64,000 bases of DNA, taken from NCBI RefSeq assembly GCF_000519325.1, contig NZ_KI912613.1, positions 278,864-342,863 of the forward strand, given 5' to 3'. Of the stretch, positions 1-4,199 are shown one piece after another. How positions within the stretch are numbered: position 1 is the first letter of the stretch; each line of letters starts with the position of its first letter. The position numbers and the translations under genes were made by a program. The DNA comes from Patulibacter minatonensis DSM 18081. GTDB lineage: Bacteria > Actinomycetota > Thermoleophilia > Solirubrobacterales > Solirubrobacteraceae. The notes beneath the pieces are model-generated. The model was not told where the DNA came from, made no database searches, and worked only from the letters and a program-made list of their open reading frames with translations.

Positions 1-180
1 CGCGGGGGCGCGGCGGGCGGGCGAGAGCGGGGCGCTCCAGGGCGTGGCGGGCGACGAGTGCGCGGGGCGCGACGGGCGCGCGGGGCTCTACGGGTGGTTC
101 GTGGGCGCGCCGCGCTCCGTCCGGTCGGGCGGCGTTGGGCGGGCGGCGGGCCGGAGCGGAAGGGGCGGGCCGACGGCCTG

Positions 181-525
181 CTCGTCGGGTCGTGTACCGC
201 TGAGGTACCGAACTCGACGAGGTGCGGCCGGCGACCGTCGCGCGGCCGACCGACGGCCTGCTCGTCGGATCGTGTACCGCCGAGGTACCGAACTCGACGA
301 GGAGCGGGCCGGCGACCGCCGCGCGGCCGGCCGACGGCCTGCTCGTCGGCCTGCGTACCGCTGAGGTACCGAACTCGACGTGGGGCAGGCCGGCGGGGGC
401 GCCGCGACGTGCGCGTCGGATCGTGTACCGCCGAGGTACCGAACTCGACGAGGTGCGACCGTCGCGCGGCCGGCCGACGGCCTGCTCGTCGGATCGTGTA
501 CCGCCGCGGTACACGAACCGACGAC
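181..525. repeat. Array of five 41-bp palindromes
   Basis: Five copies lie at 181-221, 261-301, 342-382, 412-452 and 485-525. Each has an inner dyad GTACC-N5-GGTAC and, six bases further out on both sides, an outer dyad CTCGTCG / CGACGAG. Copies 3 and 4 have one or two changes in the outer arms. Copy 5 is changed in the right flank, but there the inner dyad grows to a perfect GTGTACCGC-C-GCGGTACAC. Start-to-start spacing is 80, 81, 70 and 73 bp. The sequence between copies is also partly repeated (CGACGGCCTG before several copies). Both arms are conserved symmetrically, which suggests protein-binding sites or a structured array rather than chance. Confidence 0.8.
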
Positions 526-550
526 GGGCGGGCGGCGCTGCCACGGGCGC

Positions 551-710
551 GTCGCGTCCCGCGTGACGAACGACCATCGGCTCCGCGCCGTCCGGCGGTC
601 GGGTGCGGGTCGTCGCGCCCGGCGAGACGGGGGACCATCGACCTCCCGCCAAGCGAAGGCCGGGTGCGGTTCGTCGCCCCCGACGAGACGAACGACCGCC
701 GACCTCCCGC
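551..710. repeat. Three degenerate ~39-bp direct repeats, period ~61
   Basis: Copies at about 551-586, 611-649 and 672-710 share the pattern CGTCGC-CCCG-CGAGACG followed by GACC-TCGACCTCCCGC. Copies two and three also share the preceding GGGTGCGG. They directly follow the palindrome array. No gene or known element explains them. Confidence 0.6.
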
Positions 711-818
711 GCCCCATCTCCCTCCTCCCGCGCCCCGCGCCCCATCTCCGTCCTCCCGCGCCCCGCGCCCCATCTCCCGCCTGCCTCCTCCCACGCCCCG
801 CGCCCCGCGCCCTGCGCC
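703..818. repeat. CCCGCGCCCC low-complexity tandem tract
   Basis: Imperfect tandem repeats of a C-rich unit (CCTCCCGCGCCCC plus GCGCCCCATCT) fill this stretch; the strand is almost purine-free. It could be replication slippage or a polypyrimidine structure. Confidence 0.7.
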
Positions 819-1310
819 CTCGATGACCGGGCGCCTGTCCCTCTGGGGTCCCTTCGGGAGCCGGCCGCCCGTCACGCACCTGTCCGGTGCGAGCCGGTGC
901 GGCCCGCGCCCGCCGCCCCTCGCCCCACCGTCCGTCCGCCCCTCGCGCGGCCGAAAGGCCCGCGGAGACGGGGCGCGGCCGGTCCGTCCACCCCCGTGGA
1001 CCGTCCCGCGAGGTCCGATGTACGGTCCGTCCGTGGCCGTCTCATCGAGCGCGGACCATGGACGGATGGCATTCCGAATTGTCTTTTCGCAGGTCCTTGC
1101 AGGCGATCTCGGGCGGCCTGCGGCGTAGACGCGGCCACGGGGCGTCGTTCCGTCGGAGCAGTACGTCATGGTGTCCGTCCGTCGCCCTTGCGGACCAGTT
1201 CGCAAGGCCGGGGGAACCCCTTCGCCCGGATGGTCCGGCCGTGCTCTGCAGCGGTCTTCGCGTTCCGGGAACAGCACCAGTTCGGCAATCCCAGAGGAAC
1301 GTAGGCAGGC

Positions 1311-4199
1311 ATGGAACCGGCGAACCCGTCCATCATCAGCGACCGACGCGCAGACCAGGCGCTGACGGTCAGTCGTCGGTTCACCACCGCCGGTGTCCAC
1401 CCCTTCGACCAGGTCGAGTGGGAGCTCCGCGACGCCGTCATCGGCAACCCGGAGAAGCCGGCGTTCGTCCAGCGGAACGTCGAGTTCCCGACGTCGTGGT
1501 CGCAGAACGCGACCAACATCGTCACGCAGAAGTACTTCCGCGGCCAGGTCGACACGCCGGCGCGCGAGTCCTCGGTCCGCCAGATCGTCAGCCGCGTGGC
1601 CGGCACGATCGCCGACTGGGGCCGCTCCCTCGCGTACTTCGCGACGCAGGAGGACGGCGACGCCTTCGAGGCCGAGCTGACCTACATCCTGCTCAACCAG
1701 CTCGCGGCGTTCAACAGCCCCGTCTGGTTCAACGTCGGGTTCGAGGAGTCGCCGCAGTGCTCGGCGTGCTTCATCCTCTCCGTCGACGACTCGATGGACT
1801 CGATCCTCGACTGGAACACCAAGGAGGGCCGGATCTTCCGCGGCGGCTCCGGTTCCGGCATCAACCTGTCGAACATCCGCGGCTCGATGGAGCCGCTGTC
1901 CAAGGGCGGCACCGCCTCGGGCCCCGTCTCGTTCATGCGCGGCGCGGACTCCTGGGCCGGCACGATCAAGTCCGGCGGCAAGACCCGCCGCGCGGCGAAG
2001 ATGGTCGTCCTCGACGTCGACCACCCGGACATCCTCGAGTTCGTCCAGTGCAAGGCGAAGGAGGAGGACAAGGCCGAGGCCCTGGCCAAGGCCGGCTTCG
2101 ACATGTCGATCGACGGTGACGGCTTCACCTCGATCCAGTACCAGAACGCGAACAACTCGGTCCGCGTCTCCGACGACTTCATGCAGGCCGTCGTCGACGA
2201 CGCCGAGTGGCGGACGACGCCGCGCAACAAGGCGGCGCAGGACGTCGAGACGCCGAGCTTCCGCGCCCGGCAGCTGATGGACGAGATCGCGAAGGCCGCC
2301 TGGCGCTGCGCCGATCCGGGCATCCAGTACGACACGACGATCAACCGCTGGCACACGTCGCCGAACTCGGGGCGCATCAACGCGTCGAACCCGTGCTCGG
2401 AGTACATGCACGTCGACGACTCGGCCTGCAACCTCGCGTCGATCAACCTGATGAAGTTCCGTCGCCCCGACGGCACGTTCGACGTCCCGACGTTCGAGCA
2501 CACGGTCGACGTCCTCCTGCTCGCGCAGGAGATCATCGTCGGCCCGTCGAGCTACCCGACGGAGAAGATCGGCGAGAACGCCCGCCGCTTCCGCCAGCTC
2601 GGACTCGGCTACGCCAACCTCGGCGCGCTCCTGATGTCCAAGGGCATGCCGTACGACTCCGACCACGGCCGCGCCACCGCCGCCGCGATCACCGCCCTGA
2701 TGACGGGCCGCGCGTACCGCCGCTCCGCCGAGATCTCGGCCGCCATCGGCCCGTTCGAGGCGTACGAGGAGAACCGCGAGCCCCACAACGCGATCATGCG
2801 CATGCACCGCGACGCGTCGTACGAGATCGACGACGTCGACGCCGGCGACGTGCCGCTCCTGAAGGCCGCGCAGCGGTCCTGGGAGGAGGCCGTCGAGCTC
2901 GGTGAGCAGCACGGGTACCGCAACGCCCAGGCGACCGTCCTGGCACCGACCGGGACCATCTCGTTCCTGATGGACTGCGACACGACCGGCATCGAGCCGG
3001 ACTTCTCGCTCGTCAAGTACAAGGAGCTCGTCGGCGGCGGCTCCATGGTCATCGTCAACCGGACGGTGCCGCTGGCGCTGAAGGAGCTCGGCTACACGCC
3101 CGAGCAGGTCGACCAGATCATCGCCTTCACGAACGAGCACGGCTCGATCGTCGGCGCCCCGGGCCTCAAGGACGAGCACCTCTCGGTGTTCGACGTGGCG
3201 GTCGGCGAGCGCGCGATCACGCACATGGGCCACATCAAGATGATGGGCGCCACGCAGCCGTTCCTCTCGGGCGCGATCTCGAAGACGGTCAACATGCCGA
3301 AGACCGCGTCGGTCGAGGACATCGCCGAGGCGTACACCGAGGCCTGGCGCCTGGGCGTCAAGGCCCTGGCCATCTACCGCGACGGCAGCAAGACGGCGCA
3401 GGCCCTGCGCACCGACGCCCAGGACGACGAGGTCGTCGCCCAGGAGGAGGTCGACCAGATCGTCGCGAAGGCCGTCGGCAAGGCCGTGGCCGAGGCCGAG
3501 ACCCGCCTGCGCGCCGAGCTCGGCCCGCAGCGTCGTCGCATGCCGCGCGAGCGCCAGTCGATCACGCACAAGTTCTCGATCGGCGGCCACGAGGGCTACA
3601 TCACGGCCGGCAAGTACGAGGACGGCTCGGTCGGCGAGATCTTCCTGACCGACATCGGCAAGGAGGGCTCCGCCGTCCGCGGCATGATGAACTCCTTCGC
3701 CACCTCGGTGTCGATCGCGCTGCAGTACGGCGTGCCGCTCGAGACGCTGGTGCGCAAGTTCGCGTACATGCGCTTCGAGCCGGAGGGGATCACGACGAAT
3801 CCCGAGATCCCGTTCGCGAAGTCGATGCCGGACTACTTCATGCGCTGGCTCGCCAGCCGCTTCCTGGACGCCGACATCCAGGAGGAGCTCGGCATCCGGA
3901 CCGACGCCGTGCGCCACCGCCAGAACGCGCAGGACGTCGTCTCCGGCGGCGGCGACACCGCCCGCCCGAACTCCGGCGGCGCGGTCGTCGGCTCGGCCGG
4001 CACGGCCACCCCGCCCGCCGGCGCGGCACCGGCGCTGAACGCCTCGACGGACACCCCGCCGGTCGTCCCCGCCCGCGTCCAGGCCTCGGGCCCGGACATC
4101 GAGCTGGGCCCGGTCTGCGGCGACTGCGGCGGCATGATGCAGCGCACGGGCGCGTGCTACACGTGCTCCAGCTGCGGCAACAACACGGGCTGCGGCTGA
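1311..4199 (+). CDS. nrdJ: Vitamin B12-dependent (class II) ribonucleotide reductase
   Basis: Cytosolic enzyme that makes deoxyribonucleotides from ribonucleotides using adenosylcobalamin as radical source, so it works with or without oxygen. The 962 residues match the long NrdJ form. Visible landmarks are FNSPVWFNVG near residue 138, Cys150/Cys153 in SPQCSACFIL, NPCSE (Cys362, Glu364), a further Cys373, and the VLAPTGTISF / CDTTGIEPDFSLVKYK phosphate-binding segment near 545-580. The last ~25 residues form a Cys-rich tail (CGDCGG...CYTCSSCG) like the redox/zinc C-terminus of this family. An Ala/Pro-rich linker (about 880-925) separates the tail from the barrel. The ATG start is followed at once by the family N-terminus (ISDRRADQALTVSRRF). 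No class I subunit genes are in the window, so this may be the main dNTP source. A hairpin follows the stop codon. Confidence 0.97.
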   Translation: MEPANPSIISDRRADQALTVSRRFTTAGVHPFDQVEWELRDAVIGNPEKPAFVQRNVEFPTSWSQNATNIVTQKYFRGQVDTPARESSVRQIVSRVAGTIADWGRSLAYFATQEDGDAFEAELTYILLNQLAAFNSPVWFNVGFEESPQCSACFILSVDDSMDSILDWNTKEGRIFRGGSGSGINLSNIRGSMEPLSKGGTASGPVSFMRGADSWAGTIKSGGKTRRAAKMVVLDVDHPDILEFVQCKAKEEDKAEALAKAGFDMSIDGDGFTSIQYQNANNSVRVSDDFMQAVVDDAEWRTTPRNKAAQDVETPSFRARQLMDEIAKAAWRCADPGIQYDTTINRWHTSPNSGRINASNPCSEYMHVDDSACNLASINLMKFRRPDGTFDVPTFEHTVDVLLLAQEIIVGPSSYPTEKIGENARRFRQLGLGYANLGALLMSKGMPYDSDHGRATAAAITALMTGRAYRRSAEISAAIGPFEAYEENREPHNAIMRMHRDASYEIDDVDAGDVPLLKAAQRSWEEAVELGEQHGYRNAQATVLAPTGTISFLMDCDTTGIEPDFSLVKYKELVGGGSMVIVNRTVPLALKELGYTPEQVDQIIAFTNEHGSIVGAPGLKDEHLSVFDVAVGERAITHMGHIKMMGATQPFLSGAISKTVNMPKTASVEDIAEAYTEAWRLGVKALAIYRDGSKTAQALRTDAQDDEVVAQEEVDQIVAKAVGKAVAEAETRLRAELGPQRRRMPRERQSITHKFSIGGHEGYITAGKYEDGSVGEIFLTDIGKEGSAVRGMMNSFATSVSIALQYGVPLETLVRKFAYMRFEPEGITTNPEIPFAKSMPDYFMRWLASRFLDADIQEELGIRTDAVRHRQNAQDVVSGGGDTARPNSGGAVVGSAGTATPPAGAAPALNASTDTPPVVPARVQASGPDIELGPVCGDCGGMMQRTGACYTCSSCGNNTGCG

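Follow-up and report, generated by a model that had tools for sequence, protein, structure and literature searches.

The 64-kb stretch of DNA analysed here (the window; G000:C1:278864-342863) comes from the 5.52-Mb single-contig genome of the Patulibacter host (Thermoleophilia; G000 below), and close to its start it carries five copies of a 47-bp palindrome built as two concentric dyads, which we call type A. Elsewhere in the same genome type A lies on both sides of a gene for a predicted AbiEi-like nuclease, and this association of repeat and gene is the subject of our analysis. The five copies of the window span 178-528:

178..224, + strand: type A palindrome copy 1, core 184-218
258..304, + strand: type A palindrome copy 2, core 264-298
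339..385, + strand: type A palindrome copy 3, core 345-379
409..455, + strand: type A palindrome copy 4, core 415-449
482..528, + strand: type A palindrome copy 5, core 488-522, symmetry highest of the five

The motif GTCG-N6-GTACC-N5-GGTAC-N6-CGAC is matched exactly in all five copies, and in 20 first-order Markov replicates of the window no match was found at two or fewer mismatches. This bears out an earlier note on this DNA, which had described five nested-dyad palindromes as beyond chance. The same note held that the outer pair was degraded in copies 3 to 5, which is wrong: each copy retains both dyads, the inner GTACC/GGTAC and the outer GTCG/CGAC, in full, decay is limited to the outermost three base pairs of copies 3 and 4, and copy 5, with 19-nt arms that are 95% complementary, is the most symmetrical. 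The 35-bp cores start at 184, 264, 345, 415 and 488, giving spacings of 80, 81, 70 and 73 bp, and the centres of the four half-sites of a palindrome are about 10 bp apart. Searches of the window with Rfam and a tRNA scan returned no matches.

A search of the G000 genome with a covariance model built from 30 type A copies revealed about 45 copies at about 22 intergenic loci, either single or in tandem arrays of 2-6. Tandem spacings were nearly always 69-73 or 80-82 bp, despite spacers that differ between arrays; in G004 (Patulibacter sp. NTP18, a metagenome-assembled genome, MAG) they were 60 and 70-73 bp. Most copies sit just 3' of stop codons, at a median of about 48 bp from the gene 3' end and in both orientations relative to genes. 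The 21 clusters divide into 8 between convergent genes, 12 between genes in tandem and a single one between divergent genes, compared with 18, 51 and 27, respectively, for long intergenic regions of the same loci. The earlier note would have taken an element occurring only here, or dispersed at random, as a refutation; the element is indeed dispersed, and not unique, but its placement is non-random, being intergenic, 3' of genes, with fixed tandem spacings, and on both sides of one gene family. Integron attC sites and CRISPR, considered for the period of about 70 bp with differing spacers, were rejected because the copies are dispersed at gene 3' ends and no attC core motifs were seen by eye (cas and integrase genes were not searched for). 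Three other genes were seen between type A copies (L149 3957-5219, L146 3990-5303 and L051 99653-100897), named by eye from sequence as carrying a LigD-like polymerase domain, an M20-type peptidase and an alpha/beta hydrolase; their position is probably due to chance, and a cassette-like role may be considered.

Type A copies are also predicted to form strong hairpins (z -4.6 to -8.0), which together with their closeness to gene 3' ends would suit stem-loops that end transcription after stop codons or protect mRNA 3' ends. We consider such an RNA-level role very unlikely. Covariation supporting an RNA hairpin did not rise above shuffles, both orientations relative to genes are used, only about 22 loci occur in 5.5 Mb, spacing is quantised in turns of the DNA helix, and the flanking of one gene family would be left unexplained. 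A secondary effect of the palindromes at the RNA level is possible.

The nuclease gene, at 974185-975159 of G000, is preceded by two type A copies and followed by a third, 24 bp beyond its stop codon. Its closest homologue (61% identity), in G004, stands at a non-syntenic locus and has type A on both sides likewise; the neighbours are ABM/cupin and ABC-2 permease genes in G000, and phosphoribosyltransferase and YkuD genes in G004. Homologues at 59% identity or more (59-61%) were present only in these two element-bearing Patulibacter genomes. Among 146 genomes of the family, the motif at up to one mismatch occurred in three, namely G000 (38 places), G004 (26) and G056, whose lone match looks unrelated. 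The element is thus missing from most of the family, and the suggestion of the earlier note that these might be partition or replication sites is not supported. Of eight Patulibacter congeners only G004 carries type A, and it is not a close sister of G000. By identity of nrdJ, the ribonucleotide reductase gene of the window, to that of G000 (G007 96%, G001 92%, G004 87%), four genomes without type A (G007, G003, G001 and G005) are nearer to G000 than G004 is, which rules out that G000 and G004 share element and gene as sister species.

In a scan of 84,980 species genomes, from which records close to the host were possibly left out, NTP18 was one of only two genomes with multi-copy sets; the other was the MAG 'Actinomycetota bacterium LC3_1', a distant actinomycete with 17 related copies at two or fewer mismatches, of the form cgttcttt-GTCGCGTTCCGTACC-N5-GGTACGGAACGCGAC-aaagaacg. 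LC3_1 provided an independent check: two elements about 1 kb apart were present at a single examined place, and a homologue of the nuclease gene lies exactly between them. Rfam gave no usable match at the LC3_1 loci. Lone matches in Streptomyces and Tsukamurella look like chance. Two copies of the LC3_1 type were also seen on one contig, possibly mis-binned, of Rubrobacter LC3_4, with no nuclease between them.

The gene family was found in 32 of 149 sampled Actinomycetota genomes, and other Patulibacter members have different palindromes on both sides, such as GCTTGTCGAGTTCGTTCCGATAATCGACGCGAACTCGACGAGC around the gene on C131 of G004. In order to measure this association, we compared the 500-bp upstream and downstream flanks of each gene with one another (E<=1e-5), using tblastn coordinates for the nuclease loci. 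Flanks matched for 5 of 27 Patulibacter nuclease genes, discovery loci left out, and for 10 of 65 in other actinobacterial genera, as against 0 of 349 random Patulibacter genes (Fisher 1e-6 and 5e-9, respectively) and 0 of 76 genes whose intergenic DNA measured at least 120 bp on each side (9e-4 and 3e-4). With slightly different windows, in which coordinates were off at a few contig-end loci, the count was 15 of 66. When the upstream flank of one nuclease gene was paired with the downstream flank of another from the same genome, no match was seen (0/328). As judged from these flanks, there is one repeat type per gene, and paralogues across Actinomycetota are shown to share the same arrangement. 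Many of the flanking repeats are near-perfect hairpins (for example L297, L276, L320, L270 and L288), and several types are themselves dispersed: the L168 type in G004, the L170, L177, L182 and L187 types in samples of G005, and the L320 type in a sample of G230. In G001 and G002, very long and nearly perfect palindromes with 22- and 20-bp arms (L165 2407-2453, L188 1303-1345) were further noted to one side of nuclease genes, and no second copy was found on the opposite side of these genes.

These comparisons bear on a more conventional account, in which the palindromes are an ordinary repetitive extragenic palindrome (REP) or miniature inverted-repeat transposable element moved by an HUH transposase (a REP-associated tyrosine transposase, RAYT) or another classical transposase, and the nuclease gene is a passenger that settled in repeat-rich intergenic DNA. 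REPs with their RAYTs are a known precedent (PMC3733652, PMC6006769), and nuclease genes might pile up in safe intergenic sites. Even so, we regard this account as quite unlikely, given the 0/76 for genes with long intergenic flanks, the private repeat type of each nuclease (0/328 cross matches), and a search of G000 that found no RAYT/Y1 transposase (PF01797), other transposase families not having been searched for.

Tandem repetition is likewise enriched near the family, with tandem repeats in 34 of 194 nuclease-gene flanks and in 15 of 698 control flanks (p 2e-13), although some arrays are recent duplications and the counts are not fully independent. The periods near nuclease genes are mostly 58-63, 70-72 and 82-83 bp in unrelated sequences, and part of the control-flank repeats also lie near these values. 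Because the periods step by about 10.5-11 bp, they suggest either that a bound protein imposes a helical-phase constraint or that turns are counted during copying. Large arrays with a 59-bp period were also observed in G005 (L246 656-1058, L237 17197-17788), their repeat being the one that flanks the G005 nuclease at C4:205 kb.

Pfam assigns the protein to AbiEi_4 (AbiEi match PF13338), and some members also match AbiEi_1, DUF559 and MTES_1575. In an AlphaFold2 model (pLDDT 89.6), residues 21-214 match AbiEi (6y8q, Z 13.4), comprising a winged helix-turn-helix and the C-terminal antitoxin fold, and residues 221-321 match the EDxHD homing endonuclease I-Bth0305I (3r3p, Z 12.8, root-mean-square deviation 2.2, 96 aligned); the next structural match of this predicted nuclease domain is Vsr (1cw0, Z 11.1). 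E224, D251, E262, H269 and D278 are kept in 31-34 of 34 proteins. Two AbiEi monomers bind two 23-bp inverted repeats 3 bp apart and the DNA is bent (PMC7319586), and I-Bth0305I forms dimers on a nearly 60-bp target (PMC3943268). By analogy, a palindrome of 47-51 bp with a 5-nt centre is what one would expect as the target of a fusion of the two. Type A is plausible as a protein-binding site, since the protein has an AbiEi-type module and AbiEi operators are of nearly the same size.

The palindromes might then simply be operators of an AbiEi-like transcription factor that regulates itself and controls scattered genes, its nuclease domain being incidental. AbiEi proteins do bind inverted repeats in their own promoters (PMC7319586), type A copies lie upstream of the nuclease gene, the half-sites are nearly invariant without compensatory changes, and the helical spacing of the arrays suits protein binding. 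We think this unlikely, however: copies also lie 3' of the nuclease gene, those elsewhere in the genome are 3' of genes, a divergent gene pair enclosing just 1 of the 21 clusters, even close species differ in their repeat content, and the active-site residues are kept in 31-34 of 34 proteins. A defence or addiction module, in which the nuclease is toxin-like or restriction-like and the genomic palindromes serve as self-recognition or titration sites, appears highly improbable. The AbiEi half matches AbiEi models of PADLOC, which we did not accept as evidence of a defence system, and Vsr/MTES_1575 domains are known from conflict systems (PMC3710099); against this, no AbiEii (DUF1814) toxin gene adjoins the nuclease gene in G000 or G004, no defence-island context was seen at these two loci, and dispersed tandem arrays would be unexpected.

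The remaining features of this part of the window are as follows:

1..973, no strand: intergenic block, the part inside the window; the block starts about 141 bp before the window
550..710, no strand: type B array, three copies of a different repeat with a 61-bp period, homologous to repeats at the 782-kb nuclease gene
1311..4199, + strand: class II (B12-dependent) ribonucleotide reductase (nrdJ), a neighbour outside the system

The 782-kb nuclease gene of G000, of the same family, has homologous 61-bp repeats on both sides, so that the intergenic region of the window holds two neighbouring repeat types, each linked to a nuclease. Weak matches to type A, at 367 and 1754 kb of G000, are more like the repeat behind the 2780-kb nuclease gene (G000:C1 2779750-2780463, L189), which has an in-frame stop. 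At 693-818, 3' of the type B array, we also noted near-tandem G+C-rich repeats of about 28 bp (CCTCCTCCCGCGCCCCGCGCCCCATCT). Upstream of nrdJ, Rfam at gathering thresholds yielded neither a cobalamin riboswitch nor any other match.

Comparison of orthologous sites showed that the block between the upstream gene and nrdJ measures 1116 bp in G000 and 158, 346 and 371 bp in G007, G003 and G001, respectively. Type A was absent at all six congener nrdJ loci fetched, these three included; the arrays are therefore not conserved nrdJ control sites, and the regulator cluster that the earlier note had listed is not supported as one for the downstream gene. Two further empty sites come from G005: behind its orthologue of the gene next to the single 586-kb element of G000 there is no such element, and its orthologous pyrE-like and L,D-transpeptidase genes are without the nuclease unit found between them in G004. 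The type A arrays are thus lineage-specific additions, unless they were lost several times. The closest guess of the earlier note was thus a decaying mobile-element end: dispersal, absence from orthologous sites and the flanking of a nuclease gene on both sides agree with a mobile element, while "decaying" does not fit, symmetry being kept and many copies being intact elsewhere.

Taken together, these findings favour the view, to which we give a probability of about 0.68, that type A is a REP-like non-autonomous repeat with a dedicated enzyme, the product of the 974185-975159 gene, by which it is spread; the repeat is probably selfish. Two monomers would bind the two arms of the palindrome through their AbiEi modules, as AbiEi does on its inverted repeats, and the paired EDxHD domains would cut at or beside it. 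Repair could then fill the break with a copy of the repeat or of the whole repeat-gene-repeat unit. A lone palindrome that was cut and repaired from a repeat-gene-repeat copy would end up as two palindromes with the gene between them, as is observed. Repair might also build tandem arrays with a spacing set by helical turns, and selection against harmful sites, acting together with repair, could leave dispersed copies in tolerated 3' regions.

Several points weigh against this view. Binding, cutting and spreading by the nuclease are inferred, and none was observed; we found neither a target-site duplication nor a precise insertion boundary, and the empty-site comparisons rest on diverged intergenic DNA. 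About 80-85% of nuclease genes lack a strong two-sided repeat by the flank test, whose random-gene controls came from Patulibacter only, with gene calls from a home-made caller. The G004 homologue on C131 is close, yet is flanked by a different repeat type and not by type A. The LC3_1 homologue (L203 3806-4574) has a frameshift and shows no special closeness to the Patulibacter clade. Such a frameshift, like the in-frame stop in L189, is as expected if many of these nuclease genes are decaying selfish genes.

Whether the view extends to a new class of mobile repeat system throughout Actinomycetota, in which AbiEi-EDxHD proteins cut both DNA strands and, through repair, propagate their own palindromes of 40-50 bp as well as the repeat-gene-repeat unit, tandem unit lengths being set in helical-turn steps, is in our judgement evenly balanced. 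Such a gene-plus-repeat system across Actinomycetota is apparently undescribed: searches of open-access literature found no report of palindromes tied to AbiEi/DUF559/Vsr-like nucleases, and an earlier description is possible in subscription papers or preprints. The HUH RAYTs are the only class of dedicated enzyme known for REP-type palindromes; the AbiEi-EDxHD proteins would, if the view is true, be a second and unrelated one. It would also explain the origin of palindromic repeats in high-GC Actinomycetota, provide a function for a large set of orphan 'AbiEi/DUF559' genes, and make repeat spread testable with one protein and one 50-bp DNA. As each gene comes with a predicted target, the family could supply many natural protein-target pairs of a homing-type nuclease.

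Each half of the protein has a counterpart among known systems. With the AbiEi antitoxins of the type IV AbiE system it shares, in the model, the two-domain fold with its winged helix-turn-helix, and their operators, in which 3 bp separate two 23-bp inverted repeats (PMC7319586), resemble the 47-51 bp element with its 5-nt centre; it differs from them in its fused nuclease domain and in the lack of an AbiEii toxin gene alongside at the two loci examined. With I-Bth0305I it shares the predicted catalytic fold, over 96 of 97 residues, and conserved acidic and histidine residues. In contrast to that enzyme, its DNA-binding part is AbiEi-like, its gene lies between repeat copies in intergenic DNA and not in an intron, and its presumed target has many genomic copies. 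Among repeats, CGTC-tagged REPs are likewise dispersed palindromes, without a known dedicated transposase (PMC3733652); they are reported from five phyla, Actinomycetota not included, no nuclease link has been described for them, and type A lacks their unpaired CGTC foot. The nearest parallel in organisation is the REPtron, in which one RAYT per REP type is flanked by its REPs (PMC3733652, PMC6006769). Type A resembles REPtrons, REPINs and bacterial interspersed mosaic elements as a short extragenic palindrome, both dispersed and in arrays, with a bias to gene 3' ends, and REPtrons further in that each repeat type has an enzyme gene of its own with copies of the repeat around it, that a genome holds several types and that the distribution is patchy. 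It differs in its larger palindrome of 47-51 bp, in its tandem head-to-tail arrays with periods of about 60, 71 and 82 bp, and in having no unpaired GTAG or CGTC foot, type A ending within the paired arms GTCG/CGAC without a GTAG. Because the HUH transposase is absent (no PF01797 in G000) and the enzyme, an AbiEi-EDxHD endonuclease, belongs to an unrelated superfamily, the system is not a REPtron, although it may work in a REPtron-like manner at the population level.
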